Assembly (NCBI RefSeq): GCF_004146235.1
Contig: NZ_SELO01000006.1
Location: 124,001 to 188,000, forward strand
DNA: 64,000 nt
Source of the DNA: Tropicimonas sp. IMCC6043
GTDB lineage: Bacteria; Pseudomonadota; Alphaproteobacteria; Rhodobacterales; Rhodobacteraceae
Direction of reading: 5' to 3'
Below the pieces are notes generated by a model, which was not told the origin of the DNA, made no database searches, and was given only the letters and a program-made list of their open reading frames with translations. This document shows, piece after piece, positions 8,647 to 30,528 of this stretch. Every line of letters begins with the position of its first letter. The first letter of the stretch is position 1. A program made the position numbers and the translations under genes.

Positions 8647-9240
8647 TCAGGGCAACCAGACCGGCCGCCGGTCTCCCGCCGCGTATCGCCGCAGAACCGC
8701 CGGGTAGAGCCTGTGCTCCATGGTGAGCACGCGGGCGGCGAGGCTCTCGGGCGTGTCGCCGGGCTCGACGGGCACACGGGCCTGGCCGAGGATCGGGCCG
8801 TCGTCGAGTTCGGGCGTGACCTCGTGGACGGTGCAGCCATGCTCGGTATCGCCCGCCTCGAGCGCCCGGGCATGGGTGTGCAGGCCGCGATATTTCGGCA
8901 GCAGCGAGGGGTGGATGTTGAGCATCCGCCCCTGCCATTGGCCGACGAAGCCCGCGGTCAGCACCCGCATGAAACCGGCGAGGCAGATCATGTCGGCGCC
9001 GTGGCCCAGGATGATGTCCTGCAGCGCTGCCTCGAAGGCCGGGCGGTCCTTGCCGAAGGGGCGATGGCTCAGCGCGGCCGTGGGCACGCCGCGGGCCGCC
9101 GCCTTGGCCAGACCGACGGCCTCCGGGTCATTCGAGGCAACAAGGCAGGGCATGGCCGGGTGGCCCGGCTCTTCCATCGAGTCGAGCAGCGCCAGCATGT
9201 TGGAACCGCTGCCGGAAATAAGAATGGCGACGCGCCTCAA
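8647..9240 (-). CDS. purN: Phosphoribosylglycinamide formyltransferase
   Basis: PurN formylates GAR to FGAR using 10-formyltetrahydrofolate in purine synthesis. The 197-residue protein has the N-terminal loop [16 protein letters not shown] and the folate-site motif [13 protein letters not shown]. It also has the catalytic [18 protein letters not shown] segment, with its His and the Asp of DDGPIL. The only start that keeps the essential N-terminal strand is a TTG at 9240, which overlaps the purM stop in TTGA. The two genes are therefore translationally coupled. Length and domain content are normal. Confidence 0.96.
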
Positions 9241-10537: not shown

Positions 10538-10709
10538 GTGCGGAGCCGCGCCGTTGCCGGGCCGCGGCGTGGCGGTCCGACGGTGGGCCGACGCGCTTTA
10601 TTGCGAGGATTCCGAATAAGATTAGGACGATGCGCTGGTTCCACCGTATCGCCGGGCCGTGGGGGCGGCCCGGCGACGGCGCGGCGGCCTGCGGCCGCAG
10701 CTTCGCGCC
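10538..10709 (-). repeat. Intergenic repeat, copy A (3' of araB)
   Basis: One of three related elements of about 170 bp (others at 13563-13735 and 30285-30453). It starts with GTGCGGAGCCGCGCC and contains the shared blocks GGGCCGCGGCG, GCTTTAT, GATGCGCTGG, GTATCGCCGGGCCGTGG and GCGCGGCGGCCT. A perfect 8-bp inverted repeat, GCCGGGCC and GGCCCGGC, flanks a G-rich loop. The element ends 24 bp after the araB stop, and on the minus strand it reads as araB 3'-UTR. It fills most of the 261 bp between the tRNA and araB. No protein-coding signal is convincing, although all frames stay open because of the GC content. Confidence 0.75.
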
Positions 10710-10733
10710 GTGGCACCGAGCTCGTTGACTCGC

Positions 10734-12362
10734 CTACCCCTTCAGATTCGCATTCGCGAACGCGCCGAGCGCCTGGTAGTCGGCATAGATCGCCTCGTAG
10801 GCCGCATGGGCCTCGGCGTTCGGCGTGAAGGTCTTCTCGATCGGGCTCAGCATCGCCGCCTTGGCCGCCTCGATGCCGTCATGCGCGCCGGCCGCCGTCG
10901 CCGCGAAGATCGCCGCGCCGCGGGCGCAGGCCTGGTCGGATTCCACGACATGGATCTCGCGATTCATCACGTCGGCGCAGACTTGGCTGATGAGGTCCGA
11001 CTTGCGGGCGATGCCGCCGATGGCGACGATCTTCTTGACCGGGATGCCCTCGCTCTCGAAACGCTCGACAATGGCGCGGGAGCCGAAGGCCGTGGCCTCG
11101 ACCAGCGCCCGATAGACCGAGGGCGCGGTGGAGCCGAGGTGCAGCCCGCCGATCATCGCCCGCACCGTCTGGTCGGCATCCGGCGTGCGCCGGCCGTTGA
11201 GCCAGTCGAGCGCGCGCTCGCCGAACGCACCCGGCGGCAGCGCGGCAGCCTCCTTCTCGAGCGCCGGCAAGAGCGAGCCCTTGCTGCCGCGCTCGGAGCG
11301 GCCCCAGGAGAGCAGGCTCTCGAACCAGGCGAAGACGTCGCCGAAGGAGGACTGCCCGGCCTCGAACCCGATCTGGCCCGGCATGACGCTGCCCGGCACC
11401 TGGCCGCAGATGCCGTGGACCAGCGTGTCGCCGACCTCCTCGGGTGGCGCCACGAGGATGTCGCAGGTCGAGGTGCCCATGACGCGCACCAGCGAATAGG
11501 GCTCGATGCCGGCGCCGACCGCGCCCATGTGGCAGTCGAAGGCGCCGACGGCGACGGGGATGCCGCTCGGGATGCCGAAACGGCCGGCCCATTCCGGTGT
11601 CAGCATGCCTGCGACCTGGTCTGAGGTGCGGGTCTCGGTGAAGAGCGGCGTCGTCAAGTTGCCGAGCACAGGGTCGAGCCGTGTGAGCCAGTCGCGATCG
11701 GGCAAGCCGCCCCAATCTGGATGCCAGAGCGCCTTGTGACCGGCCGCGCAGCGGGAGCGGACGACCTTCGAGGCGCTGTCGACACCGGTCAGCAGCGCGG
11801 GGATGTAGTCGCAGAGCTCGACCCAGTTGGCGGCGGCACGGAAGACCTTGGAGTTGCTCCGGCCGACATTCAGGATCTTTGCCCAGTACCATTCGGAGGA
11901 ATAGATCCCGCCGACATAGCGGATATAGTCGGTGACCCCTTCCTCGGCGCAGAGCGCGTTGATCTCCTCGGCCTCGCGGGTCGAGGTGTGGTCCTTCCAG
12001 AGGATGCACATCGCGTCCGGATCGGTGGTGAACCCCTCCTTCAGCGCCAGGGCGGCGCCGTCATCGGCCACCGGAAGCGGCGAGGAGCCGGTCGTGTCGA
12101 CGCCGATCCCGACGATCTCGGGCGTGCCGTCACAACCGGCGATCGCGTCGCGCACGGCGGCGACCATCGCCTCCATGTAGTCGGCGGGGTGCTGGCGATA
12201 CTGCTGACGCGCCGGGTTGCAGAAGCGCCCTTCCATCCAGCGGGGATACTCGGCCACGCCCGAAGCAATCTCCGCACCGTCGGTAGCGCGCACGACGACG
12301 GCGCGCACCGAATCGGAACCGAAATCGAGACCGAGCACGTGGGTGTTGCTGGTCGCCTGCAT
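10734..12362 (-). CDS. araB: Ribulokinase
   Basis: AraB phosphorylates L-ribulose to L-ribulose 5-phosphate, the second step of L-arabinose catabolism. The 542-residue protein is an FGGY-family kinase. The N-terminal phosphate motif is LGLDFGSDSVRA (10-21), and GVDTTGSSPLP and DAMCILWKDHTS are diagnostic for ribulokinases. The C-terminal half has GTSTCDILV and IVAIGGIARKSDL. The ATG at 12362 is preceded by a GGAGGAG ribosome site. It is divergent from araC, whose product probably controls it through the half-site at 12435. The gene is about 20 kb from araA and araD, unlike the enteric araBAD order, and repeat copy A follows it. Confidence 0.96.
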   Translation of the reverse strand: MQATSNTHVLGLDFGSDSVRAVVVRATDGAEIASGVAEYPRWMEGRFCNPARQQYRQHPADYMEAMVAAVRDAIAGCDGTPEIVGIGVDTTGSSPLPVADDGAALALKEGFTTDPDAMCILWKDHTSTREAEEINALCAEEGVTDYIRYVGGIYSSEWYWAKILNVGRSNSKVFRAAANWVELCDYIPALLTGVDSASKVVRSRCAAGHKALWHPDWGGLPDRDWLTRLDPVLGNLTTPLFTETRTSDQVAGMLTPEWAGRFGIPSGIPVAVGAFDCHMGAVGAGIEPYSLVRVMGTSTCDILVAPPEEVGDTLVHGICGQVPGSVMPGQIGFEAGQSSFGDVFAWFESLLSWGRSERGSKGSLLPALEKEAAALPPGAFGERALDWLNGRRTPDADQTVRAMIGGLHLGSTAPSVYRALVEATAFGSRAIVERFESEGIPVKKIVAIGGIARKSDLISQVCADVMNREIHVVESDQACARGAAIFAATAAGAHDGIEAAKAAMLSPIEKTFTPNAEAHAAYEAIYADYQALGAFANANLKG

Positions 12363-12434
12363 CGCTGAATCTCCTCCGCTGCGCGAGAATGCCCCACTCC
12401 AACGGAGCCGGTCGTCGCCGACGGACCCCATTTG

Positions 12435-12451
12435 CATGGACAATTCTACTT
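12435..12451. promoter_or_regulatory. Candidate AraC half-site between araB and araC
   Basis: CATGGACAATTCTACTT occurs here and again, with one mismatch, at 12545-12561. Read on the minus strand toward araB it is AAGTAGAATTGTCCATG, which resembles the enteric araI1 half-site pattern TAGC...TCCATA. It lies 72 bp upstream of the araB start in an otherwise GC-rich region. The assignment rests on similarity and location. Confidence 0.45.
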
Positions 12452-12544
12452 GACCTCCCGGACGGGGTTTCCTTCCAATCCCCGTCGTCAGGGTGTAGAT
12501 TAAAAATCGTACCGCGCGACCTCAATATCTCATCCCGCTACAGA

Positions 12545-12561
12545 CATGGACAATTCCACTT
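12545..12561. promoter_or_regulatory. Second candidate AraC half-site, overlapping the araC start
   Basis: CATGGACAATTCCACTT is a direct copy, one base different, of the element 110 bp upstream, in the same orientation. It includes the most upstream ATG of araC, so if it is an operator it would either overlap the start codon or lie in the leader of a shorter araC beginning at 12648. Such a pair could allow looping or autoregulation, as known for enteric AraC, but this is inference. Confidence 0.4.
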
Positions 12562-13550
12562 CGCTCGATCCCTCACAGGACCCGCAGGTCCAGCGTCTCA
12601 TTTCCAGGCTCAACCACGGCGAGACGCCCTCGCCGGACGATACCCGGATGGCCTCGCTGTTCCCGGGCTTCCGGTTCGACGTGCGCCTCGTTGCCGGGAT
12701 CACGCCGATCGAGAAGGACGGGCCGCTGGACTTTTTCATCGACCGGCCGAACGGTATGCGCGGCTGGATCGTCAACCTGACGGTCGAGGGCACGGGCCAG
12801 GTCTTCGAGGGGGCGCATGGCTTCACCGTCTCGCCCGGCGACTTGCTGCTCTTCCCGCCCGGCGTGCCGCATTACTACGGCCGTGCCGAAGAAGCCTCGA
12901 AATGGTGGCACCGCTGGATCTACTTCCAGCCGCGGGCTTTCTGGAAACCCTGGCTGGACTGGAACCAGAAGATCGACGGGGTGCATGTGCTGCGCCACCG
13001 TGACGAGGCCAAGTTCAGCGAGCTGTTCCGGCTCTTCGTCGAGGTCGACACCTGGTCGCAGCGGGCCGACGCGCTGTCGCTCGACCTCGCCTTCAACCGG
13101 CTCGAGCACATCCTGCTCTCCTGCGCCCGGCAGGACAGGGACGCGCGGAACTCGCCGGTGGTGGTGGACGAGCGGGTGCTGGCGGCCTGCACGCTGATCT
13201 CGCAGAACCTCGCCAAGCCGATGGGCGTGCAGGAAGTGGCCGAGCATGTCTGCCTCTCGCCGTCGCGGCTGTCGCATCTCTTCCGGAAATACATGGGCAC
13301 CGGCGTGGTGCAATGGCGCGACGCGCAGCGGGTGCAGTTTGCCATGCAGCTCCTCAGGATCACCAACATGCCGATCAAGTCGATCTCGCAGATGGTGGGC
13401 TATGACGACGCGCTCTATTTCTCGCGCGTCTTCCGCCGGCACACGGACATGAGCCCGCGGCGGTTCCGGGACCGGCACGGCGACGTTCTACCCGACGGCG
13501 AGAAGACCCGCGCGGCCGTGGTCCGGTCACTGGACCTGCCGGGGGAGTGA
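12546..13550 (+). CDS. araC: AraC, arabinose operon transcriptional regulator
   Basis: This is a true AraC rather than a generic family member. The arabinose-binding cupin domain contains RLVAGITPIEKDGPLDFF, DRPNGMRGWIVNLT, PGDLLLFPPGVPHYYGR and WHRWIYFQPRAFW, all close to the enteric protein. The C-terminal double helix-turn-helix includes EHVCLSPSRLSHLFRKYMG and DDALYFSRVFRRHTDMSP. It would sense L-arabinose and control araB here and the chvE-araA operon at 32-38 kb. The ATG at 12546 gives 334 residues with about 35 extra N-terminal ones; the ATG at 12648 (MASLFPGF) would match the enteric N-terminus better. Neither has a strong ribosome site. Confidence 0.92.
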   Translation: MDNSTSLDPSQDPQVQRLISRLNHGETPSPDDTRMASLFPGFRFDVRLVAGITPIEKDGPLDFFIDRPNGMRGWIVNLTVEGTGQVFEGAHGFTVSPGDLLLFPPGVPHYYGRAEEASKWWHRWIYFQPRAFWKPWLDWNQKIDGVHVLRHRDEAKFSELFRLFVEVDTWSQRADALSLDLAFNRLEHILLSCARQDRDARNSPVVVDERVLAACTLISQNLAKPMGVQEVAEHVCLSPSRLSHLFRKYMGTGVVQWRDAQRVQFAMQLLRITNMPIKSISQMVGYDDALYFSRVFRRHTDMSPRRFRDRHGDVLPDGEKTRAAVVRSLDLPGE

Positions 13551-13562
13551 GGCGGCTTCCGA

Positions 13563-13735
13563 GTGCGGAGCCGCGCCATCGACGGGCCGCGGCGCGGCGA
13601 TCCGGCGGTGGGTCGGGGCGGTTTATGGTGAGGACTCCGAAAAAGCTCGTCGCGATGCGCTGACGGCGAGGTATCGCGGGGTCGTGGGGGCGGCCCGACG
13701 ATGGCGCGGCGGCCTGACGGCCGCTGCTTCGCACC
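13563..13735 (-). repeat. Intergenic repeat, copy B (3' of homospermidine synthase gene)
   Basis: This is the second copy of the roughly 170-bp element. It shares GTGCGGAGCCGCGCC, GACGGGCCGCGGCGCGG, GGTTTATGGTGAGGA, GATGCGCTG, GTATCGC, GTGGGGGCGGCCCG and GGCGCGGCGGCCTG with the other copies. The inverted repeat near its right end has changed sequence (GGGTCG against CGGCCC) but still pairs if a G-U wobble is allowed. It lies in the convergent gap between araC and the homospermidine synthase gene, 45 bp beyond the stop of the latter. Confidence 0.75.
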
Positions 13736-13780
13736 TGCTCTCGGCAAGAAGGTCTTCGACTACCGAAGCTCGTATCGGCC

Positions 13781-15202
13781 TCAGCTCGCCAGCACGTTCC
13801 GGAACAGCCAGGGATCGCTCTCGTCGATGTCTTCGGGAAACTGCGCCCAGCGGTCCTGGAGCGGTGTCCAGTCGGTGTAATGCGCCTCCACCGGGCCGAG
13901 ATAGGGGCGCTGCACCTCGAGGCAGCGGACATGGTCCATCTCGTCGGTCTCGACGATCCCGGCCTCGGGGTTCTCCAGCGCCCAGACCATCCCCGCCAGC
14001 ACCGCCGAGGTAACCTGTAGCCCGGTCGCGTTCTGGTAGGGCGCAAGTTCGCGCGCCTCCTCGTTGGAAAGCCGCGAGCCGTACCAGAGCGCATTCTTCG
14101 CGTGGCCGTAGAGAAGCACGCCCAACTCGTCGATGCCCTCGACGATCTCGTCCTCGGCGAGGATGTGGTGCCGCTCCTGCTGGCGGCCCGAGCCGAACAT
14201 CTCGTGCAGGCTCAGCACCGCATCGTCGCAGGGGTGATAGGCATAGTGGCAGGTCGGGCGGAACTCCGGCGCGGCGGCGTCGCCGACCGTATAATAGTCA
14301 GCGATCGAGATCGCCTCGTTATGGGTCACGAGGAAGCCGAATTGCGGCCCCGGCGTCGGGCACCAGCTGTGCACCCGGGTGATCGCGCCCGGCCGTTCGA
14401 GCCAGATCGCCGCCTGGCAGCCCGTCTCGTGCCTGTGGCCGTTCTCCGGAAACCAGGTCTCATGCGTGCCCCAGCCAAGCTCGGCCGGCTGGAACCCCTC
14501 CGAGATGAAGCCCTCGACCGACCAGGTATTGACGAAAAGGCCACGCGCCCGCGGCACCCGGCGTGCCTGCGTGTCCCGCTCGGCGATATGCACGCCCTTG
14601 ACGCCAAGGGACTGCATGAGCCCGGCCCAGCCCGCGCGATCGGTGGGCATCGGAACATCGCGCCCGAGATCGCCCGCAAGCGTCATCAGCGCCTCCTTGA
14701 CGAACCAGCTGACCATGCCAGGGTTCGCGCCGCAGCAGCTGACGGCCGTCGTCCCGCCCGGGTTTCGCGCCTTCTCGTCCCGCACCACCTGGCGCAACGC
14801 ATAGTTGGTGCGGGCGGCGTTGTCGGTGGTGCCGAAGTAATACCCCGCCCAGGGCTCGACCACGGTGTCGATATAGAGCACGCCGAGCTCGCGCATGAAT
14901 TTCATGATGTCGAGCGAGGACGTGTCGACAGAGAGGTTGACGCAAAAGCCGCGCCCCTCGGCAAAGAGCGTGCCCAGGACCTCGCGGTAGGTCTCCTTCG
15001 TCAGCTCCACCTGCAGGTGGTTGAGATTGTGCTGACGCAGGAAGCCGGCCTTCGTCGGGTCGGGCTCGATGATCGTGAGCTTCGCGGCGTCATAGTCGAA
15101 ATGGCGCTCGATCAGCGGCAGCGTGCCCTTGCCGATGGAGCCGAAGCCGATGAGGACGATCGGCCCGTCAATGCGGCCGTAATTCGGGTATTCCCGTTCC
15201 AT
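13781..15202 (-). CDS. hss: Homospermidine synthase
   Basis: This enzyme makes sym-homospermidine from putrescine (or putrescine and spermidine) in an NAD-dependent reaction and is common in alphaproteobacteria. The 473-residue protein has an N-terminal Rossmann motif IVLIGFGSIGKGTLPLI (15-31) and an acidic strand end LTIIEPD. It also has the conserved NLSVDTSSLDIM, VEPWAGYYFG and CCGANPGMVSWFVKEAL segments, and full family length. It is monocistronic, convergent with araC, and followed by repeat copy B. Its start lies 103 bp from the bamB stop. The product is cytoplasmic. Confidence 0.93.
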   Translation of the reverse strand: MEREYPNYGRIDGPIVLIGFGSIGKGTLPLIERHFDYDAAKLTIIEPDPTKAGFLRQHNLNHLQVELTKETYREVLGTLFAEGRGFCVNLSVDTSSLDIMKFMRELGVLYIDTVVEPWAGYYFGTTDNAARTNYALRQVVRDEKARNPGGTTAVSCCGANPGMVSWFVKEALMTLAGDLGRDVPMPTDRAGWAGLMQSLGVKGVHIAERDTQARRVPRARGLFVNTWSVEGFISEGFQPAELGWGTHETWFPENGHRHETGCQAAIWLERPGAITRVHSWCPTPGPQFGFLVTHNEAISIADYYTVGDAAAPEFRPTCHYAYHPCDDAVLSLHEMFGSGRQQERHHILAEDEIVEGIDELGVLLYGHAKNALWYGSRLSNEEARELAPYQNATGLQVTSAVLAGMVWALENPEAGIVETDEMDHVRCLEVQRPYLGPVEAHYTDWTPLQDRWAQFPEDIDESDPWLFRNVLAS

Positions 15203-15305
15203 CTGCGTCTCCTATTGGTTTGTCTGCGCCTGCTGGCATTGGACGCGCCTCTGCCGGGGCACCGGAGGCGGCCCTTCCCCCTTGCCGGGGCGCGGTCGTC
15301 CCCGC

Positions 15306-16655
15306 TCAGCGATAGGCGACCAGTTGGCCCTTCGTCGTCACCAGATAGAGCGTGCGATTCACCACCACGGGGTTGGTCGTCGCGCCTCCGGGGATCTCCA
15401 CGGCCGAAATCAGGCTTCCATCGCGCGGATTGAAGCTGCGGATATAGCCGTCATCCGAGGCCACGATCAGCCGGTTGCCGGCAAGGACGGGGCCGTAATG
15501 GGCGTAGACGTCGCGATAACGGCGCGGCCGCTGCGACTTGAAGCCCGGCAGGTCCACCGCCCAGATCACCTCGCCGGTCGAGGCGTTGAGCCGGACCAGC
15601 TGCTCCAGGTCGGTCACCGCGAAAACCGATCCGCCATCGACCCAGACCGGGCTCATCGCGCCCTCGGTGGCGGTCCAGATGCGCCCGCCGGTTGCCAGGT
15701 CGAGCGCGGCGATCCGGCCGGAGGGCGAGCCGACATAGACCCTGTCGCCGACGATCACCGGATCAGAGGAGATGTCGGAGATCAGCGAATAGGCGCGGCC
15801 GCGGCGACGCCCGGCGAGCGTGGTCGCCCAGCTGCGCTGGCCATCCCTCTGGGCGCCGACGAGTTCGGCCGAGCCGAAGGGGAAGATCGCGAGGCGGGAA
15901 TCGACTGCCGGCCCGGCGCCATTCACAGTCGCCGTGGGCGACGGTACGGCGGGAAGATCCCAGGCCAGCCGGCCGTTATCGGCCCGCACGGCGAAGGCGC
16001 GGTTGTCGCGGCTGGCGACATAGACCATGCCGTCCCGCACCGTCGGCGCGCCGGCGACCGGCGCGTCGAAGCCCTGGACCCAGAGCGTCTGTCCGGTTGC
16101 CGGGTCGAGCGCATGGAGACGGCCGAACCCGGTGGTGACGAAGAGCCGGCCATCGCCATATGCCAGACCGCCGCCCGAACCGTCGCTGTTATTGTCGGAG
16201 GCCGGCGTCAGGTCGCGCGACCACTGCGTCGCGCCGCCCAGCGAATGGGCCATGACCTGGCTGCGGGAATCGAGCGTGAAGATGCGCCCGGCGCCCACCA
16301 CCGGGTCGGCCGTGATATGCGCCTTGCGGCTGTCGCCGCTGCCGATCGAGGTCGACCAGACCGGCGTCAGATTGGCGCCGAGCGCCGGGTGCTGGATACG
16401 GTGCGTGGCGCTGCCGCCGCGATGGGTCCATTCGGAATGGTTGACCTGGGCCGAGGCGCCAAAGGCGACGTCGCCCGCCACCGGCGCTCCGACTGGCGGT
16501 ATCCCGACTTCTACCGGGCTGACGTCTCCGGCCTCGATCACTTCCAGCGGCGTGCGCACATCAAAGCGTTCGCCGGGAAGCGGCGGATCACCGCCGCAGC
16601 CGGCCAGCATCAGGGCGATCATCGCCCATCCCGCCGCAGATACCCGTGCCTTCAC
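15306..16655 (-). CDS. bamB: BamB-like outer-membrane assembly lipoprotein (PQQ-type beta-propeller)
   Basis: BamB is the lipoprotein propeller of the BAM complex that folds outer-membrane proteins. The product has a lipoprotein signal ending LMLAGC (Cys20 from the GTG start). It then has about seven PQQ-like blades with repeats such as RIFTLDSRSQVMAHSL, RLHALDPATGQTLWVQGF, FAVRADNGRLAWDL, RIAALDLATGGRIW and QLVRLNASTGEVIW. The GTG at 16655 has a GGGAGA ribosome site 8 bp upstream; an ATG six codons earlier is also possible. It lies 45 bp downstream of the TPR gene in one operon, the usual neighbourhood in this order. Confidence 0.9.
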   Translation of the reverse strand: MKARVSAAGWAMIALMLAGCGGDPPLPGERFDVRTPLEVIEAGDVSPVEVGIPPVGAPVAGDVAFGASAQVNHSEWTHRGGSATHRIQHPALGANLTPVWSTSIGSGDSRKAHITADPVVGAGRIFTLDSRSQVMAHSLGGATQWSRDLTPASDNNSDGSGGGLAYGDGRLFVTTGFGRLHALDPATGQTLWVQGFDAPVAGAPTVRDGMVYVASRDNRAFAVRADNGRLAWDLPAVPSPTATVNGAGPAVDSRLAIFPFGSAELVGAQRDGQRSWATTLAGRRRGRAYSLISDISSDPVIVGDRVYVGSPSGRIAALDLATGGRIWTATEGAMSPVWVDGGSVFAVTDLEQLVRLNASTGEVIWAVDLPGFKSQRPRRYRDVYAHYGPVLAGNRLIVASDDGYIRSFNPRDGSLISAVEIPGGATTNPVVVNRTLYLVTTKGQLVAYR

Positions 16656-16700
16656 CGCATGTTCTCCCGTCACCTTGCAAATGCGCCCAGTGCCCTGGCC

Positions 16701-17366
16701 TCAGCCCTGACCCGCAGCATCCCCGATATCGGCGCCGAGCGCCAACAGCAATTGAGAGACACGCTGAAGCAGGCCCTGGGTCAGTTGCGGTTCCTGCAGC
16801 AGCGCCTGCGCCGCCGCGATCGCAGCCTCGGTGTCACCCGCCGCGGCGAGGTCCAGTACCTGCTGTTCCAGCGCCAGCGGCCGGTAGGGCGCGCCGGGCG
16901 TGGCCAGCCGTTCGAGAAGCTGCGCGCGCAGGTCGGGCGAGACCGCGTCGCCGCCGATCAGGACCATCTTGAACGCGGCAAGATCGGTGTAGGCGGCGGG
17001 CAGGTCGGTGCGCGCGGCCAGCGGCTCGAGCGTCGCCACAGCGGCCTCGGGCTCTTCGGCGGCGAGCTGCTCGGCCGATGCAAGCAGCGCGATCACGCCG
17101 GCCATGTCGCCCGAGACAGGAAGCTCCTTCAGCGCATCGACCCGGACCAGCGGCCCGGGGAGCTGCAGCGCCGACATGATATCGTCGCCGAGCGCCTGCG
17201 CCGCGGCCGTTTCCCGCGCCTTGCGGTATTCGTTCCAGCTCGCCCCGGCGACGATCAGCACCACCGCCAGGATCGCGATCCAGCCGTATTTGCGGAAGGT
17301 CCGGAAAAGCCTCTCGCGGCGAACCTCCTCGTTCACCTCGTCGATAAAACTGTCGGACTCGCTCAT
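16701..17366 (-). CDS. TPR-containing YfgM-like translocon-associated membrane protein
   Basis: A 221-residue protein with a short acidic cytoplasmic N-terminus (SESDSFIDEVNEEVRRERL), one membrane helix (about residues 28-43) and a periplasmic Ala/Leu-rich helical domain that fits TPR-like repeats. This is the layout of YfgM-family proteins, which sit at the SecYEG translocon and hand substrates to periplasmic chaperones. Location directly upstream of bamB supports that assignment, since yfgM and bamB are neighbours in many proteobacteria. The ATG at 17366 precedes the conserved N-terminus. It is divergent from the efflux operon. Confidence 0.85.
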   Translation of the reverse strand: MSESDSFIDEVNEEVRRERLFRTFRKYGWIAILAVVLIVAGASWNEYRKARETAAAQALGDDIMSALQLPGPLVRVDALKELPVSGDMAGVIALLASAEQLAAEEPEAAVATLEPLAARTDLPAAYTDLAAFKMVLIGGDAVSPDLRAQLLERLATPGAPYRPLALEQQVLDLAAAGDTEAAIAAAQALLQEPQLTQGLLQRVSQLLLALGADIGDAAGQG

Positions 17367-17630
17367 AGGTCCCCGCCCGTGCCTTAAATTCCATCGGCCA
17401 CCCCCGCAATGCCGGGAACCCTGCCGAAACCGCCCCCTCTTACCCCGAAGGCCTTGCAAATGCCAAGACCCGCTGCGGTTTCCGCCAGGCGCGTCGTTAC
17501 GGGTAGGGAAATCCACCATATCGGGGCATCCCGGCCCGATTCCGAGCCTCCGCTCTTGCCATCGTAGCGCTTTGGATACATGTGTTCCCCCGAACGCGCC
17601 TGCGCACAGGTTCCCGAAAGGCCCGGGCAA

Positions 17631-18887: not shown

Positions 18888-18909
18888 CACGCGCCGGGGG
18901 AGAGGGCCC

Positions 18910-22629: not shown

Positions 22630-22846
22630 GCGCGTCGCGCCGGACACAAAGGCAGAAGAATCCAACCAAATTTCCGCCCGGCGGGCGGTTCGTCCGGTGC
22701 TGCGGGGTTTCGGCAACACTCCGCCCCACCCGCACCCCGCCGCCTCCGGGACGCTTGCGGGAGTTGATTCGCAGGGCCTAGATCGGAGAGAGGCACCCGA
22801 GAAAAAAACAACGGGGCCCGAGCAGGACGAAACGACAGGCACCCTC

Positions 22847-23551
22847 ATGACACAGACGCATTTCGCAACCGCGTGCGTGCTTACCCTTCTCTGTGGCCAG
22901 GCGGTGGCCGACGAACTCATCCCGGCCTCGGTGGCCCCCTTCCGCGAACCGCCGCTGATGGTGGACCGTTTCATCGGCGCCCATGCCGGTGTCTCGCTCG
23001 GTTTCGCCGCTCCAGGCAACGACGAGGTCGGCATCTCGGGCCCCGGCATCGCGGGCACCGAGGATATCGGCGAGCTCGGCCTTGGCGGCGCCGGGTTCGC
23101 GCTCCAGGTGGGCTACCGCTGGGATCTCGACACGGTGCTCCTCGGGGTGGAGGCATCGGCGCGCCTGGGCAATATCTCGGCCGATTTCGACACCGATGCC
23201 GGCGAAGGCTCGAACGAGCTCACGGGCGCGCTCTCGCTGCGCGGCGAGCTCGGCTGGGAGGCGCGCAGCGACACGCTGTTCTACGGGTTCGCCGGTGCGA
23301 CGCTCGGCAGTTTCGACTACGAGCTGTCGCGCACCGGCGGCGGCGAGATCGACGACAGCTTCAGCCGGACCGGCTATATCGGCGGGGTCGGCGTCGAGCG
23401 TGCGCTGAACGAGACCTGGTCGTTGCGCGGCGAGTATCAGTATTCGAACTTTGGCAGCGAGGAACTCGAGGGGGCCGGCGGGTACTCCACCAAGGTCACA
23501 CCGGATTTCCACAGTTTCTCGCTCGGGCTGAACTACAGCTTCGGGCGTTGA
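22847..23551 (+). CDS. Outer-membrane beta-barrel protein (Omp25/OmpA-like porin fold)
   Basis: A 234-residue protein with a signal peptide (residues 1-21, cleaved near VADE). The barrel domain has alternating strands: AHAGVSLGFA, ALQVGYRWDLDTVLLGVEAS, TGALSLRGELGWE, LFYGFAGATLGSF, YIGGVGVERALNETWSLRGEY. The C-terminal strand FSLGLNYSF ends in aromatic Phe-Gly-Arg. This is the eight-stranded Omp25-like fold common in alphaproteobacteria. The ATG at 22847 is chosen because it begins the signal peptide. It follows the efflux operon by 217 bp and is convergent with the DUF3422 gene. A role as the efflux channel is unlikely, as it is not a TolC protein. Confidence 0.82.
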   Translation: MTQTHFATACVLTLLCGQAVADELIPASVAPFREPPLMVDRFIGAHAGVSLGFAAPGNDEVGISGPGIAGTEDIGELGLGGAGFALQVGYRWDLDTVLLGVEASARLGNISADFDTDAGEGSNELTGALSLRGELGWEARSDTLFYGFAGATLGSFDYELSRTGGGEIDDSFSRTGYIGGVGVERALNETWSLRGEYQYSNFGSEELEGAGGYSTKVTPDFHSFSLGLNYSFGR

Positions 23552-23608
23552 CACCCTGAGACATCGCGCCTGCGCGCAGCCTCCGCGAGGGGCGTCTGCG
23601 GAGCGCGC

Positions 23609-24910
23609 TCAGTGCATCCGCTTGCGGATCTGCCGGACCATCAGGAACACAAGGAGCACCACGACCGGCGTGAGCAGCGACAGCGCCAGCCCCTTGGAGA
23701 CCCCCAGTGGCTCCAGCACCGGGTAGACCGCGTAGCCCGCAAGGCTCACCGCGTAGTAGCTGATCGCGACCACCGAGAGCCCCTCGACCGTCTCCTGCAA
23801 GCGCAGCGCCAGATCGGCGCGCCGGTCCATGCTTGCCAGCAGCCGCTGGTTCTGCGCCTGCCGCTCGACATCGACCCGTGTCCGCAGGAGGTCGCCTGCC
23901 CGCGCGGCCCGGTCGGCCATCGCCTTCAGCCTCGCCTCCGTCGACCGGATCGTCCGCATCGCCGGGTCGTAGCGCCGGCTCATGAACTCTTCGAAGGTCT
24001 GCCGCTCGCCGAACCGCGCCTCGCGCAGAACCCTGATCCGGTCATGCAGGATCGCTTCGTATGCTGCTGTCGCGCTCAGCCGGAAAGCGGAGGTCGCCAG
24101 CAGCGTCTCAAGCTCGGCCGAGATCGCCAGAAGCTGATCAAGCGCTTCCTCGGACGGACGCCGCTCGCCGGTGAGATCGCCCATCAGATGCGTGAGCCGC
24201 CCGTCGATCTCGCCCATCCGCTCACTCAGCTCGCGCGCCCTCGGCAGGCCGAGCAGCGACATCGTCTTGTAGATCTCGATCTCCGTCAGGCGCTGGACGA
24301 TCCGCCCGATCCGGCGGTTGCTGGTTCCCGGCCGCACGAAGACTGCCATCCGGATATGCCCCGACGTGTCGATCCGGAAATCTCCCGACACGATCGCCGC
24401 TTCCTCGAGAACCCAGGACGCGGCGATGCTTTCGGCCACGAACCAGTCGGAGATCTTTTCCGTCATCGGCGCATCTTCGCCCTCCGACAGGGTCTCGATC
24501 CGGATCAGCGCCGAGGTCATCCGCATGCCCGGCGCCTCCGCAAGCCAGTCCTGCGGCAGAAGCTCGTATTCGGCCGGGTCGAACGGGCGTTTCTCGAGCC
24601 CGTCGATGAACAGCGTGTAGGTCGTGAACTCGGTGTGGCATTCCCATTTCAGCTTGTGCAGGCCGATCTCGCCGAACCAATGCGTCGCGCCGGGCTTCGG
24701 ATGCGGCGCGCCGAACCGGTCGAGCATGGAAATCAGGTGCGCCCGGTCGCGGTCGCGGTCGCGCGCGGCGGCGTCCTTCGGCACCTTCAGCGCCAGAAAC
24801 AGCGCATGCGACGGCACCGTCAGCGACGGGAAAGGCCGCGCATGCAGTTCGTTGGCGGTCTCGTAGCGGCGCGGGTGGTCGGCCAGGGCGTTCGGGATAT
24901 CGGTGTTCAT
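23609..24910 (-). CDS. DUF3422 family membrane-anchored protein
   Basis: This 433-residue protein belongs to DUF3422, widespread in proteobacteria and without a proven function. The N-terminal region has the family segments NELHARPFPSL, LFLALKVP, HLISMLDRFGAPHP and HWFGEIGLHKLKWECHTEFTTYT. A central predicted coiled-coil (about 240-350) follows. Two membrane helices are near the C-terminus (about 382-398 and 405-423), followed by a basic tail RQIRKRMH. It is probably an inner-membrane protein with a large cytoplasmic domain. It is alone, upstream of nothing on its own strand within 80 bp. Confidence 0.88.
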   Translation of the reverse strand: MNTDIPNALADHPRRYETANELHARPFPSLTVPSHALFLALKVPKDAAARDRDRDRAHLISMLDRFGAPHPKPGATHWFGEIGLHKLKWECHTEFTTYTLFIDGLEKRPFDPAEYELLPQDWLAEAPGMRMTSALIRIETLSEGEDAPMTEKISDWFVAESIAASWVLEEAAIVSGDFRIDTSGHIRMAVFVRPGTSNRRIGRIVQRLTEIEIYKTMSLLGLPRARELSERMGEIDGRLTHLMGDLTGERRPSEEALDQLLAISAELETLLATSAFRLSATAAYEAILHDRIRVLREARFGERQTFEEFMSRRYDPAMRTIRSTEARLKAMADRAARAGDLLRTRVDVERQAQNQRLLASMDRRADLALRLQETVEGLSVVAISYYAVSLAGYAVYPVLEPLGVSKGLALSLLTPVVVLLVFLMVRQIRKRMH

Positions 24911-24991
24911 GAGGCCAGATACGCCGTCATCGGTATCGTCGCAAAAGGAAATCCGCGCGGTGCGGGAAATCGCGCGCGCAGCGTGCCCCGG

Positions 24992-25762
24992 CTACCAACT
25001 CCCGGTAACGCTGATCCGCAGAAGCCTCAGCCGCCGCGCGACGCCGCTCTCCTCCAACTCACCCGCGAGCACGCGTTCCGGCGCCGTCGCAGCGCGCCGG
25101 AGCGTCGGTTCGGCCCGCCAGGCCGCGCGCAGCGCCGGGGTCAGATTCGCCGGCAGTCCGGCGCGACGCGCCCGGGCAAGCCGCTCCAGCCCATCCTGCG
25201 CCAGCGCCCCGATCGCCGCAGGCTCGGCATCGACAAGCGGCTGCCGCCCGCGCGCCCGGAGTTCCGGAACCGCGCGCAGGAAACCGGCAAGTCCGCCGGC
25301 CCAGCCGACGGCGCGGATCGCCGCCTCGCACTCCTCCGGCGCGCCGAGCGCCTGCGCCGCCAGCCACATCAGCCCCGCCGACGTCGCCTCGATATACGCG
25401 TCGAACTGCCCTGTGGTCTCGAAGGGCGCGCGGTAGATGTCCCACCGCCGCGCGGCAACCAGCGCCTGCAACGGCTCGACCGGCAATCCCCGGTCCCGCA
25501 GCAGCTCGGTCAGCGGAATGGCGACCTCATGCGCCCGCAGCGGCGCGCCCGCCGCGATCTCGCCCAGAACGTCGTGCCACCATTGCAGCCGCATCTCGCA
25601 GATCATCGGCTCGGCGCTCACCCAGGGCGCGCGGGTGACTTCGACATTGAAGGCATAGAGCGGAAAGAGCGCAGCGCGGGCGGGCACCGGCGCCGTCATC
25701 GTCGCCAGGAAACGGTCCGGATCCCCCTTTTCGGTGATCGCTGCGCAATCCGCGATGCTCAT
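24992..25762 (-). CDS. Squalene/phytoene synthase-like protein (NDUFAF6-related)
   Basis: The 256-residue product has the fold of head-to-head prenyl synthases. RFLATMTAPVPARAALFPLYAFNVEVTR, EMRLQWWHDVL and WDIYRAPFETTGQFDAYIEATSAGLM mark it as the COG1562 type related to the mitochondrial complex I assembly factor NDUFAF6. The aspartate-rich DxxxD motif of true synthases is replaced: the first site reads ICEMRLQWWHD and the second is FDAYIEAT. Prenyl synthesis is therefore doubtful; a non-enzymatic or assembly role is plausible. The gene lies 7 bp from the methyltransferase and is probably co-transcribed with it and cimA. Confidence 0.8.
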   Translation of the reverse strand: MSIADCAAITEKGDPDRFLATMTAPVPARAALFPLYAFNVEVTRAPWVSAEPMICEMRLQWWHDVLGEIAAGAPLRAHEVAIPLTELLRDRGLPVEPLQALVAARRWDIYRAPFETTGQFDAYIEATSAGLMWLAAQALGAPEECEAAIRAVGWAGGLAGFLRAVPELRARGRQPLVDAEPAAIGALAQDGLERLARARRAGLPANLTPALRAAWRAEPTLRRAATAPERVLAGELEESGVARRLRLLRISVTGSW

Positions 25763-25769
25763 CGGCGGC

Positions 25770-26489
25770 TCATTCCGGCGCCACGACCGCCAGCAGATAG
25801 GCGATCCTGTCCGGCGCCGCGCGCCATGCGGCGATCTCCCGCTCGCCGTCCCGCAAGGCCGCCTCCGGCGCCGGCGTCACCTCGCCGCCGCGCAGATCCG
25901 CGATCCGCGCCTCCATCGGCGCGTAATAGGCCTCCCAGGCCGCGCCGGTGATGACCCGCGTGCCAAGGATTCGGTAGCCCGCCGCAGCAATCCGCTCCCG
26001 GATGCCGGCCTCGTCTGTGATCGCGGGATACTCTTCCCAGAAATCACGCACCGCTTGTGGCTCGGGCCCGCCGAGCAGAACCGGTTCGGAAAAGGCCACC
26101 CGCCCGCCCGGCGCCAGGGCCGGCCGCCAGGCCGTGAGCCCCTCGGTCACGCCGAGGAAATAGAGCGCGCCGGCACACCAGATGAGGTCATAGGGCCCTT
26201 CGAGCTCCGCCATCGAGCCCGCCCGCGCGGTCACCCGCGGCCCGAACCGCGCACAGCGCGCAGCGGCGGCCGCGGCAAAGGGCGCGTGCAGCTCGATCGC
26301 CTCGATCTCCGCCTCCGGCAGCGCCTCGGCCAGTGTCTCGGTATCCGCGCCGGGCCCGCAGCCCGCGTCGCAGACCCGCACCGCGCCGCGCGTCCCGGCC
26401 GTCGCGAGCGCCCAGGCCACATCTTCCGGCCCCCCCGGCCCTTCCCGCGGCAGGTCCCGGTGAAGGGTGAAGAAGGCGTCCCAATCCAT
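25770..26489 (-). CDS. Class I SAM-dependent methyltransferase
   Basis: A 239-residue Rossmann-fold methyltransferase. Motif I is VCDAGCGPGADTETLAEAL (residues 38-56), followed by the acidic IEAIEL of motif II, a DLIWCAGALYFLG segment and the GGRVAFSEPVLL strand. Substrate cannot be told; relatives in this position are often annotated as generic methyltransferases. The stop lies 7 bp before the squalene-synthase-like gene, and its start 3 bp after the cimA stop. The four genes cimA, methyltransferase, squalene-like and perhaps DUF3422 thus read in one direction with tight spacing. Confidence 0.85.
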   Translation of the reverse strand: MDWDAFFTLHRDLPREGPGGPEDVAWALATAGTRGAVRVCDAGCGPGADTETLAEALPEAEIEAIELHAPFAAAAAARCARFGPRVTARAGSMAELEGPYDLIWCAGALYFLGVTEGLTAWRPALAPGGRVAFSEPVLLGGPEPQAVRDFWEEYPAITDEAGIRERIAAAGYRILGTRVITGAAWEAYYAPMEARIADLRGGEVTPAPEAALRDGEREIAAWRAAPDRIAYLLAVVAPE

Positions 26490-26492
26490 CGA

Positions 26493-28124
26493 TCACGCTC
26501 CAATCGCCGGTGCCCCGTCGCGCAGGAGCTTCCACTGGATCGCCTCCAGCAGCGCCTCGAAGGACGCGTCGACGATATTGGGCGACACCCCCATCGTCGA
26601 CCAGCGCCGCCCGGCTTCGTCCTCGCTGTCGATGATGACGCGGGTCACCGCCTCGACGCCGCCATTGGTGATGCGAACCTTGAAGTCCACGAGCTTCATG
26701 TCGGCGATATAGGGCTGGAGCGGTCCGAGATCCTTGGCCAGCGCCCGCGACAGCGCGTTGACCGGGCCGCGGTCGGAGCCGTCGGGGTCGAGCGATTCCG
26801 AGACCGAGAGCCGCTTCTCGCCGTCGATATGAAGCACGACGACCGCCTCGGAGAGCGATATCGTCTCGCCGAGCCGGTTCTTGCGGCGCTCGACCGTGAC
26901 CCGGTAGCGGTCGATCTTGAAGAAACTCGGCAGGAGGCCCAGCTCGCGCCGCGCGAGAAGTTCGAAGCTCGCCTGCGCGGTGTCGTAGGTGTATCCCGCC
27001 GCCTCCCGCGCCTTGACGAGGTCGAGGATGCGCCCGAGCGCCGGATCACCCTTCTCGACCATGAGCCCGGCCTCGGTCAGGCGCCGGCGCAGGTTCGACT
27101 GGCCGGCCTGGTTCGACATCGGGATGATCCGCTCGTTGCCGACAAGGGCGGGGTCGATATGTTCGTATGTCGACGGGTCCTTGAGCATTGCCGAGGCGTG
27201 CAGACCCGCCTTGTGCGCGAAGGCCGAGGCGCCGACATAGGGGGCGGCGCGCGCAGGCACGCGGTTGAGGATGTCGTCCATCATCCGGCTGAGCCGGGTC
27301 AGGCTCTCCAGACCCTCCTCCGTGACGCCGGTCTCGAACCGGCTCCGGTAGGGCTCCTTCAACGACAATGTCGGGATCAGCGAGATCAGGTTGGCGTTGC
27401 CGCAACGCTCGCCGAGCCCGTTCAATGTCCCCTGGATCTGCCGCGCCCCGGCATCCACCGCCGCCAGAGAGCCGGCGACGGCGTTCTCGGTGTCGTTATG
27501 GGTGTGGATGCCGAGCTTCTCGCCCGGGATGCCGGCCGCGATCACCGCGCTGGTGATGTCGTAGATCTCCGCCGGCAGCGTGCCGCCATTGGTGTCGCAG
27601 AGCACCACCCAGCGCGCGCCAGCCTCGAGCGCGGCCCGTAGGCAGGCGATGGCGTAGTCCGGGTTGGCCTTGTAGCCATCGAAGAAATGCTCGGCGTCAT
27701 AGAGCGCCTCGCGGCCCTCGCCGACGATGTGGCTCACCGAATCCGCGATCGCCGCGACATTCTCCTCGAGCGTCACGCCGAGCGCGGTCGTGACTTGGAA
27801 ATCGTGGCTCTTGCCGACGAGGCAGACCGCTTCCGTGCCGGCATTCATCACCGCCGCGAGCACCTCGTCATTGGCCGCCGAGCGCCCGACGCGCTTGGTC
27901 ATCCCGAAGGCGAGGAAGGTCGCGTGCCGGAACTCGGGCCGGCTGTCGAAGAACTCGCTGTCGGTCGGGTTGGCGCCGGGCCAGCCGCCCTCGATGTAGT
28001 CGATGCCGAGCCCGTCGAGCGCTGCCGCGATCTCCCGCTTGTCCTCGAGGCTGAACTGCACGCCCTGCGACTGCTGTCCGTCGCGCAGGGTGGTGTCGAA
28101 CAGGTAGAGCCGTTCCTTGCTCAT
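26493..28124 (-). CDS. cimA: (R)-citramalate synthase
   Basis: CimA condenses pyruvate and acetyl-CoA to (R)-citramalate, the first step of the threonine-independent route to isoleucine. The 543-residue protein is a DRE-TIM metallolyase: LFDTTLRDGQQSQGVQ gives the Arg/Asp metal motif, HTHNDTENAVAGS the His pair, and GTLNGLGERCGNANL the flexible region. The long C-terminal regulatory domain (from about 400) is typical of citramalate rather than isopropylmalate synthase in this family. It overlaps the stop of the upstream DUF6680-like gene in ATGA, so it is translationally coupled to cysS through that gene. Confidence 0.95.
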   Translation of the reverse strand: MSKERLYLFDTTLRDGQQSQGVQFSLEDKREIAAALDGLGIDYIEGGWPGANPTDSEFFDSRPEFRHATFLAFGMTKRVGRSAANDEVLAAVMNAGTEAVCLVGKSHDFQVTTALGVTLEENVAAIADSVSHIVGEGREALYDAEHFFDGYKANPDYAIACLRAALEAGARWVVLCDTNGGTLPAEIYDITSAVIAAGIPGEKLGIHTHNDTENAVAGSLAAVDAGARQIQGTLNGLGERCGNANLISLIPTLSLKEPYRSRFETGVTEEGLESLTRLSRMMDDILNRVPARAAPYVGASAFAHKAGLHASAMLKDPSTYEHIDPALVGNERIIPMSNQAGQSNLRRRLTEAGLMVEKGDPALGRILDLVKAREAAGYTYDTAQASFELLARRELGLLPSFFKIDRYRVTVERRKNRLGETISLSEAVVVLHIDGEKRLSVSESLDPDGSDRGPVNALSRALAKDLGPLQPYIADMKLVDFKVRITNGGVEAVTRVIIDSEDEAGRRWSTMGVSPNIVDASFEALLEAIQWKLLRDGAPAIGA

Positions 28125-28696
28125 GCCGAAGGTCCTTCGTTTTCGGAGGCTTCTTGTCCGTTGCTGTCCCCCGTTCCGGAGGTCTGAACGAAATCAACAA
28201 CGCCAACAGGAAGAAGGAGCTTCCCTTGACGCAACCCAACAAGAAACTCGCGGATTATCTGCTGTTGCTCTTCCGCGACTCCAAGTCCCTTTGGGTAGTA
28301 GCCGCCCGAAAGGATTTTTATCTGATCGAACTTATACCCAAGATCCCGTGCTATCTCGTCGATAAGGAGTACGCTCTTCCTGTCAACTTCCTCGTTCACC
28401 GCATTCAGAACATTCGCATTCCCACTTTCCCACTTCTGCCGATCCGAGTAAGTCTGCATTAAATCGTTGAACTTTTCCAAGATCTTTTTCTTTCCGGCAA
28501 ACTCGATCTCAATCAGATTCAATGCCATTACTCTGTCTTGGCTAAGCTGGGCTTTTCTCGTGCTTAAGAGTGATCGCAGAACATATAATTTCCGTTCGCG
28601 TTCACGGTCCCTTACTTGAAGTTGGCGGGATATAAGAACCGCGAGAATTGGCCCCAACACTATCGCAACAGTAGTAATCCAGAACTCGCTGCTCAT
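28121..28696 (-). CDS. DUF6680-like membrane-anchored protein, low GC
   Basis: A 191-residue protein with one N-terminal membrane helix (about residues 6-23), then a charged RDRERERK stretch and a mostly helical cytoplasmic region. It resembles DUF6680 proteins ([27 protein letters not shown]). Its base composition is clearly lower in GC than its neighbours, and it uses AT-rich codons (TTA, ATA, AAT). It is wedged between cysS and cimA with an ATGA overlap at both ends (28693-28696 and 28121-28124). Foreign origin is likely. Function unknown; related proteins are found scattered in accessory regions. Confidence 0.7.
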
Positions 28697-30063
28697 ATTG
28701 ACGCCTCCAGCTTCGCCGCGTCAAAATCGTCGCCGGGAACAAGCTCAACCCCCCCCTTGCTCATGCGCACCTCGACACCGGCCGCAAGATAAGCTGCCTT
28801 AAGCCGGTCGACCTCGGAGAAATCCTTGTTCTCCATCGCCGCAGCGCGCGCTGCAGCTAGCCGTGCCTCATGCTCGGAGAGATCCACGTCCGGCGATTTT
28901 GCCCATTCAGGCACTTCGTCTTCCATCAACCCGAGAAGTTGAAGAGTATAGCGCAGTGTCGAAACGTCGTCGGCCAATGAGAGTTGGTGGCATTCGGCAA
29001 TCGCTTTCGCCGTGTTCAGGTCGTCTGACAGGGCGTTGACTACTCCAACATAGGGCTTCCCCTCGGCAGCTCCCTGCGCCGCTTGGGCGTACCATTTCCT
29101 GAGCGTCTTTTCTGCCTGCCGCGCCTTCTCCGCCGTCCAGTCCATCGGCTTCCGATAATGCGTCGAGAGATACACGAACCGGATCACCTCGCCCGGCACG
29201 CCCTGTTCCAGCACGTCATGCACGGTGAAGAAGTTGCCGAGGCTTTTCGACATCTTCTTCCCCTCGACCTGCAGCATCTCGTTGTGCATCCAGATCCGGG
29301 CAAACTCGCCCTCCGGATGCGCGCACCGGCTTTGCGCGATCTCGTTCTCGTGGTGCGGGAACATCAGGTCGTTGCCGCCGCCATGGATGTCGAAGCTCTC
29401 GCCGAGCAGCGCCAGAGACATCGCCGAGCACTCGATATGCCAGCCCGGACGGCCGCGGCCCCAGGGGCTGTCCCAGCCAGGAAGGTCGTCCGTCGACGGC
29501 TTCCAGAGCACGAAGTCCATCGGGTTGCGCTTGTACGGGGCGACCTCCACGCGGGCGCCGGCGATCATGTCCTCGACCGAGCGGCCGGAGAGCGCTCCGT
29601 ATTCGGCGTATTTCTCCACCGCGAAGAGCACATGGCCCTCGGCTTCGTAGGCGAAACCGTCGGCCACCAGCCCCGCGATCATCGCGATCATCTCGCCGAT
29701 AAAGGCGGTCGCGCGCGGTTCATGCGTCGGCGTCAGCACCCCCAGCGCGCCCATGTCCTCGTGATACCAGCGGATCGTCTCCTCGGTGATCGCCCCGATC
29801 GGCCGCCCGCTCTCCTCGGCGCGGCGGATGATCTTGTCGTCCACATCGGTGAAGTTGCGCACATAGGTGACGTGGTCCGCCCCGTAGACATGGCGCAGGA
29901 GGCGGAACAGCGTGTCGAAGACGATCACCGGGCGGGCGTTGCCCATATGCGCGCGGTCATAGACCGTGGGCCCGCAGACATACATCCGCACGTTCCCCGA
30001 ATCGATCGGATCCAGCCGCTCCTTGCGGCGGGTCTTGGTGTTCCAGAGCCTGATATCGGCCAT
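28693..30063 (-). CDS. cysS: Cysteinyl-tRNA synthetase
   Basis: CysRS charges tRNA-Cys. The 456-residue class I enzyme has Cys30 in YVCGPTVYD and the HIGH-type signature HMGN (39-42). [10 protein letters not shown] and HHENEIAQS supply the zinc ligands, and KMSKSLGN is the second ATP motif. The C-terminal helical domain (from about residue 330) is complete. The last 400 bases, roughly from 29100 down to the stop, are poorer in GC than the first two thirds, matching the adjacent low-GC gene. That suggests recombination reached into cysS. The start is 222 bp from repeat copy C. Confidence 0.97.
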
Positions 30064-30284
30064 GAGAAATCCTCTCGGGTGCGGCGCCCGGCGGGTCTAG
30101 CAACTTCGATCTGGAAAGGGAATGAAGGAACCTGCCCGCCTGACGATGTCAGCGGATAATGCAGATGCAGATGATGACGCTGCGGGTCTTCATGACGCCG
30201 TCCTAGCGCCTCGGCCGCGCCGCGCCAAGCGTTTTCTGATCGCTGTGCCAGACGGTCGCTTGTTCACTTGTCCGCCGGGGCCGG
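30064..30284. other. Gene-free stretch upstream of cysS
   Basis: Together with repeat copy C (30285-30453) this makes a 465-bp gap between cysS and the cytochrome gene. The stretch should contain the cysS promoter. Its first 100 bp are less GC-rich. I see no convincing reading frame or RNA gene; the open frames in it are short and lack ribosome sites. Confidence 0.5.
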
Positions 30285-30453
30285 GTGCGGAGCTGCGCCA
30301 TCGACGGGCCGCGGCGCGGTGATCCGACAGATGGTCGGAGCGCTTTATGGTGAGGAGTCCCAAAATGAACGGCACGATGCGCTGGCGTCAACGTATCGCC
30401 GGGCCGTGGGGGCGGCTCGTCGATTGCGCGGCGGCCTTCGGGTTTTGCACAGC
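30285..30453 (-). repeat. Intergenic repeat, copy C (3' of cytochrome gene)
   Basis: This is the third copy of the roughly 170-bp element. GTGCGGAGCTGCGCCATCGA, GGGCCGCGGCGCGGTGATCC, GCTTTATGGTGAGGAGTCC, GATGCGCTGG, GTATCGCCGGGCCGTGG and GCGCGGCGGCCTTCGG match the other copies. The 8-bp inverted repeat keeps seven of eight pairs, one as a wobble. It lies 75 bp beyond the cytochrome stop and in the same orientation to that gene as copies A and B are to theirs. Confidence 0.75.
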
Positions 30454-30528
30454 GCCACGGTTCCTTGCTCGGAGCCCTGATCCGGATCAACGTCAAGCAT
30501 CGCCCAGTCCGGTCAACCAGAGTCCGGA

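Follow-up and report, generated by a model that had tools for sequence, protein, structure and literature searches.

A dispersed intergenic repeat with a conserved secondary structure in a family of the Rhodobacterales

The stretch of DNA analysed here, referred to as the window, comprises 64,000 nucleotides of Tropicimonas sp. IMCC6043 (contig NZ_SELO01000006.1, positions 124,001 to 188,000) and contains three copies, A, B and C, of an intergenic repeat of ∼170 nt (Table 1). A preliminary description, made from the sequence of the window, had reported three elements of about 170 bp in the same orientation, each lying shortly past the stop of a minus-strand gene. Both statements hold: the three copies align without gaps over ∼150 columns, a covariance model finds all of them on the + strand, and the distance from the end of the element to the stop codon of the minus-strand gene on its right is 23 nt for A, 44 nt for B and 71 nt for C. 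Of the neighbours named there as araB, hss and cytochrome, the last stands as a cytochrome c gene (C), and the others were found to encode an FGGY sugar kinase (A) and a saccharopine-dehydrogenase-like protein (B). To this we can add that copies A and B sit in converging gaps, since each also follows a + strand gene, tRNA-Met 69 nt before A and an AraC-type regulator gene 16 nt before B; both neighbours of C are minus-strand genes. As direct repeats, A and B bracket the FGGY kinase and AraC-type regulator genes (10734-13550).

Table 1. Copies of the repeat in the window, and structural parts of copy C
Feature	Position	Strand	Basis
Copy A, between tRNA-Met (+) and FGGY kinase gene (-)	10542..10710	+	covariance model, 143.4 bits, E 8.7e-27
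Copy B, in the converging gap between AraC-type regulator gene (+) and hss-like gene (-)	13567..13736	+	covariance model, 133.4 bits, E 7.9e-25
Copy C, between class I tRNA synthetase gene (-) and cytochrome c gene (-)	30289..30457	+	covariance model, 147.2 bits, E 1.5e-27
Arm a of copy C, pairs with arm d	30302..30312	+	covariation in helix 1
Arm b of copy C, pairs with arm c	30313..30323	+	covariation in helix 2
TTTAT in the large loop of copy C	30344..30348	+	motif at the aligned place in 120/132 copies
Arm c of copy C	30395..30405	+	covariation
Arm d of copy C	30413..30424	+	covariation
3' hairpin region of copy C, upper part imperfect in this copy	30426..30455	+	covariation in helices 3 and 4

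When copy C was used as a query against its own genome, it retrieved B at 84% (E 2.5e-42) and A at 80% identity (E 6.6e-34), together with seven further long copies at 76–83% and one at 67%. These identities and E-values exclude a chance likeness, and the three-copy repeat is confirmed as real, its copies alike far beyond chance. Within the window, nothing beyond A, B and C scored above 27 bits with the covariance model, which finds no fourth copy.

The covariance model was built from 29 copies of seven genomes. In the genome of the window's own strain (5.46 Mb in 293 contigs) it finds 16 full-length copies of 163–185 nt (E below 1e-11), as well as four long copies with weaker scores (E 2e-7 to 2e-5) and some eight short forms, 57–82 nt in length (E 7e-9 to 0.013). 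Of 149 genomes of the same Genome Taxonomy Database (GTDB) family, representing 148 genera, the model matches 60 (E up to 1e-4), several of them at least 18 times, whilst 89 are without a match. In a sample of the class, 2 of 289 genomes have a match (E up to 1e-5), one being the own genome and the other likewise belonging to this GTDB family. Stricter filters, under which weak matches are lost, were applied wherever more than 40 genomes were scanned. In DNA searches, two congeneric species had at least ∼40 places each among the matches listed (many of the places appear on both strands, the repeat being palindromic), and copies were found in two of eight relatives within the window's genus. 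An exact pattern search of a named collection gave at least 80 matches; of the 80 listed, 78 carry Rhodobacterales names, whilst the other two belong to one assembly labelled only Alphaproteobacteria. Membership of the Rhodobacterales was checked for Carideicomes, Natronohydrobacter, Alkalilacustris and Rhodalgimonas; the other genera bearing the pattern, among them Sulfitobacter, Roseovarius, Roseivivax, Salipiger, Ruegeria and Pseudosulfitobacter, are members of the order as well. In a plasmid collection the first copy matched Pseudosulfitobacter, Salipiger and Roseinatronobacter. A single copy, searched against 50,697 phage records, matched none of them, and there was no repeat match in three comparison stretches picked blind (G073:C1, G135:C1, G165:C1). 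The family is an interspersed repeat of ∼170 nt, which to date is confined to a single GTDB family of Rhodobacterales, mostly marine bacteria.

From 5' to 3' the repeat consists of arms a and b, a loop of ∼73 nt, arms c and d split by a G-rich bulge, and a 3' hairpin. The outer arms are joined in a long stem in which a pairs with d and b pairs with c; in two short forms that were inspected (L012, L014), arm a joins the right end directly. The structure was derived from a 29-row MAFFT alignment, in which nine pairs have two-sided changes, compared with 3.8 after shuffling, and the covariation score is 0.180 against 0.096. The signal is stronger in 112 matches fitted to the model, where 98.1% of the cells are paired, 20 of the 28 pairs have changed on both sides (7.6 on average after shuffling) and the score is 0.233, compared with 0.075 for shuffled alignments and at most 0.057 for slid controls. 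It is also visible when the copies are aligned without the structure: in the 105 copies left after thinning at 85% identity, pair 19:129 occurs as G-C in 70, C-G in 18 and A-T in 12. Four helices covary strongly. The preliminary description had supposed such a conserved structure and had proposed a covariance-model search of this and related genomes with a count of compensatory changes; that search has given many copies and an excess of pairs changed on both sides.

The preliminary description had, on the other hand, taken the inverted pair GCCGGGCC/GGCCCGGC (arms c and d) for the hairpin that is kept. This local pairing was rejected, as only 89.6% of its cells are paired (G-U 5, A-C 30), compared with 93.5% for a/d, a figure that includes one often-mismatched position, and 95.6% for b/c. 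An outer extension, L/R1, was rejected too: it is paired in 92% of cells, against 98% for R1/R2, and both change jointly in 6 of the 13 copies with a changed R1. Protein coding was likewise set aside: by eye, with no coding test made, A and C are partly readable and B has stops, and the covariation accounts for the conserved blocks. The stems themselves vary: some copies of the own genome (L248, L250, L251 and L253) have other stem sequences, with joint changes of segments L, R1 and R2 in two of them, L250 and L251. In genome G149 (L160-L207) the conserved unit is ∼240 nt, extending ∼35 nt on each side of the core with the inverted ends TTTTGGCCTGGAG / CTCCAGGCCAAAA, and a GCGGAC-type left flank is common to some other genera.

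Pairing in the stems is close to strict. With one mismatch-prone pair left out, 3033 of 3238 cells are Watson-Crick, 72 are G-U, 33 are A-C and 100 are other combinations, as expected if both strands must fold. Relative to dinucleotide shuffles, the folding z-scores on the + strand are -4.4 for A, -5.0 for B and -1.9 for C, and on the - strand -3.4, -3.9 and -1.9; in 40 sampled copies they are likewise similar on both strands, with means of -2.8 and -3.3. Counted as genome-by-pair events, G-U exceeds A-C by 61 to 26 (p 2e-4, the copies being related and not independent). G-U is ahead whichever of the four gap types is considered (38:20, 11:2, 19:9 and 3:1). By genome, the excess is small for the own strain (16 to 13) and turned round in G149 (4 to 16).

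Placement relative to genes was counted for 132 copies from 30 genomes, consisting of the best-scoring matches of the family scan and the 16 full copies of the own genome; 16 places added later and the arrays of G002 are outside these counts. Genes were called by a custom script, whose output was compared by eye with the open reading frames listed for the window. The script calls no RNA genes, and so copy A is counted as antisense-tandem despite the preceding tRNA. Four copies have no neighbour on one side, leaving 128, of which 69 lie in converging gaps, 53 in tandem gaps (24 sense, 29 antisense) and 6 in diverging gaps. Another 342 gaps measuring 20 nt or more, taken from these stretches and from the window, are distributed quite differently, with 30 converging, 212 tandem and 100 diverging. 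In the tandem gaps, 44 of the 53 copies lie closer to the stop than to the start, with median distances of 56 nt to the stop and 146 nt to the start. Ten converging gaps are taken up by the repeat except for 60 nt or less, one copy spans its gap from stop codon to stop codon, and 16 of the 93 copies with a sense gene upstream start within 10 nt of its stop codon. Thus, the location near gene 3' ends given in the preliminary description is upheld, whereas the fixed orientation to the neighbouring gene is not. The latter is explained by the own genome, where for 15 of 16 copies the next gene points its 3' end towards the repeat and the tandem gaps are 1 sense and 7 antisense; no such rule exists across the family.

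The family is dispersed and fluid, and has multiplied within lineages. The nearest neighbour of a copy comes from the same genome in 96 of 120 cases, compared with a mean of 9.8 and a maximum of 21 when the labels are shuffled. Among 757 predicted proteins, nine seeds from the 25 widest clusters were inspected, and none keeps a constant position next to the repeat; the gene clusters inspected likewise revealed no position common to different genera. All 16 pairs of copies closer than 450 nt are head-to-tail, 14 of them 225–266 nt apart, and one genus relative has two arrays (L286, L287) of four diverged copies each with a period of ∼230 nt.

Strains also differ at single sites. On Pseudosulfitobacter plasmids, the same site holds either a full copy or a short form (L285/L306; flanks and gap 94.4% identical over 95%), and another holds alternative subfamilies on opposite strands (L283/L307; 97.0% over 91%). 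At a third site (L430/L454; 95.4% over 91%) there are mixtures, each strain keeping a different one of two facing copies whole, as we read the alignment. The second subfamily (L307, L435, L454) has different stem sequences and the same layout; a copy of it matched 148 plasmid records, 129 of them from Pseudosulfitobacter. Between the related genomes G443 and G149, a copy follows one common gene in both species, on opposite strands; of three G149 copies, two are lacking in G443 beside the common gene block, the other neighbours being different. On a sister plasmid (L455) the gap by the same LysR gene is without a match, and there too the other neighbour differs.

In three plasmid records (L429 2657-3813, L431 and L435) the repeat is interrupted by a 1157-bp IS110 element, and the insertion point is the same in all three, CCTTG/ATTCC in the loop of the 3' hairpin, although two of the interrupted copies are of the first subfamily and one is of the second. 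The IS110 query matched 12 plasmid records, of which these three, matching over at least 97%, were inspected; the other nine are at 60–80% identity. The non-coding region of the element holds AATCAAG, the complement of the target CTTGATT, as the target loop of a bridge RNA might.

How does the repeat compare with known systems? The closest are the repetitive extragenic palindromic (REP) sequences and the bacterial interspersed mosaic elements (BIMEs) built from them. The repeat resembles these in being an extragenic imperfect palindrome with many copies and combinations of subfamilies. A REP unit is ∼20–60 nt long; the present repeat differs in its length of ∼170 nt (the short forms excepted), in having four covarying helices and in the head-to-tail arrangement of neighbouring copies. 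Extragenic location, palindromes, combined subfamilies and the insertion of IS110-family elements into the hairpin are described for REP/BIME in PMC1525189, and roles in 3' protection and termination in PMC5082802. Insertion of an IS110-family element inside the hairpin, found here for all 3 close copies of one IS110 element, is frequent in REP/BIME and not strictly defining. Nine of eleven bearing genomes, the own genome included, have no match to the Y1 transposase family of Pfam that includes the REP-associated tyrosine transposases, or RAYT (PF01797).

The enterobacterial repetitive intergenic consensus (ERIC), a 127-bp sequence of enterobacteria, is by its description also a long imperfect palindrome that is intergenic and dispersed. 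It is set apart, again by description, by its different hosts and because the present repeat adds a 3' hairpin and the TTTAT loop motif. The Rhizobium-specific intergenic mosaic elements (RIME) and the Caulobacter intergenic repeats are palindromic intergenic repeats of alphaproteobacteria and so, by description, of the same class, and in the class sample our model has no match outside the family. Miniature inverted-repeat transposable elements (MITEs) are similarly short, non-coding and dispersed with inverted arms, but by eye, with no systematic search made, the flanks show no target duplication and no parent element was found. An intrinsic terminator has a hairpin and then a T tract, the latter being absent here, and at the paired ends of the consensus of 105 copies no AAC/GTT was seen on inspection, such as is conserved in the outer boxes of integron attC.

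In agreement with the statement in the preliminary description that no named family fits, Rfam 15 has no match over the copies at its curated thresholds: in the window, only two tRNAs reach the gathering scores, and in 20 further loci, searched with E-value limits, nothing lies above threshold and four matches lie below it. One of these sub-threshold matches, to CRISPR-DR29 (E 0.71, 23.7 bits against 39), overlaps a copy (L044 1607-1646, - strand) and is taken as chance. In the literature on such repeats in this group we recognised nothing as this family, with the reservation that few subscription papers were covered and an earlier description may exist. Nor was the repeat found to be a known insertion-sequence remnant; it nevertheless behaves as a dispersed repeat, which the preliminary description had not proposed. 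It looks like an undescribed repeat of the BIME/ERIC kind, larger and more elaborate, and unnamed in Rfam.

The best explanation, which we hold with confidence and doubt in about equal measure, is an interspersed element resembling BIME and ERIC sequences, multiplied within lineages and kept for its secondary structure, whose stem-loops act on transcript 3' ends. We infer that this action is two-way from the placement, the strict pairing and the similar folding on both strands. Copies landing in promoters would be lost and those landing after stop codons kept. An element kept there would be read into from one or both sides and would form a strong stem-loop on either strand, and this stem-loop may mark or protect transcript 3' ends and separate converging transcripts, working in the manner of BIME/REP and ERIC sequences. 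A transposase belonging to the repeat was not found. Several points weigh against this explanation. Much of the placement could arise simply because harmful insertions are lost, and the element is dispensable, since 89 of the 149 family genomes have no match at the threshold used. There is no T tract past either end, the T content being much like that of control windows. The G-U excess of 72 to 33 suggests one preferred strand, with the labelled strand folding as RNA or as a single strand, which a two-way role does not need. Copy C folds weakly better than shuffles on both strands and, with a z of -1.9 on each, would not convince alone. Finally, no clean empty site was found in the window's genus, on plasmids or between G443 and G149; in the window's genus such sites are unreadable because synteny is broken there.

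The main rival, which we consider rather unlikely, is a purely selfish element, the fold serving its own movement as folded single-stranded DNA or as a cruciform and the placement reflecting the loss of harmful insertions. Multiplication by lineage, the uniform head-to-tail order of close copies, the strict Watson-Crick pairing and the differences between strains at single sites would all follow from this. It sits less well with the converging gaps, whose share of the copies (69/128) is far above that of other gaps (9%), with the absence of the Y1 transposase from most bearing genomes, and with the lack of a fixed neighbour gene among the clusters examined. A further reading, in which the repeat is a selfish element of structured RNA or single-stranded DNA that differs from insertion sequences, RAYT-REP systems and retrons, is carried by uncharacterised machinery to the 3' ends of transcription units and replaces its own relatives in place, so that whole genomes come to have a common two-way module at their transcript ends, seems to us distinctly improbable.

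It is similarly improbable that the copies are a family of small RNAs with their own promoters, acting in trans, with the labelled strand as the RNA. Such RNAs would account for G-U being above A-C in every gap type, for the unpaired TTTAT in most copies and for the 29 antisense-tandem copies, which are read in sense by neither neighbouring gene. Against them, copy number ranges from none to dozens within one family and, by eye and with no promoter scan made, there is no upstream box common to all lineages, only lineage-wise flanks. More doubtful still is the proposal of the preliminary description itself, a terminator or 3' untranslated region element of the neighbouring gene working in one orientation. 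Whilst the own genome, with its one-sided placement, and the copies that start within 10 nt of a stop codon favour it, the nearly equal sense and antisense tandem counts of the family and the lack of a T tract speak against it.

Synteny in the window bears on one further idea. Between the gene at 9237 and the gene at 30529, a hand count gives 15 junctions, 6 of which are breaks when compared with genus relatives; one of these breaks shows in just three of the four relatives. Breaks fall at all 3 element junctions and at 3 of the 12 others (chance 20/455 = 0.044), an excess that is suggestive only, because converging gaps adjoin operon borders anyway. That the repeat is a recombination site which imports gene cassettes, in a role like that of integron attC, with A and B flanking the kinase–regulator pair, is very improbable in spite of this excess, as breaks also occur without the element, the pair is present in genus relatives (L292-L295) in stretches without a repeat match, and no attC boxes were seen in the consensus.

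Elements of IS110 that target REP hairpins are known (PMC1525189; see also PMC11187229), and the 3' hairpin of the present repeat is a natural target for an RNA-guided IS110 recombinase. With its strong covariation, its bias towards converging gaps and its presence in many genera, the family allows a direct test of whether repeats of this kind are kept for organising transcript ends.

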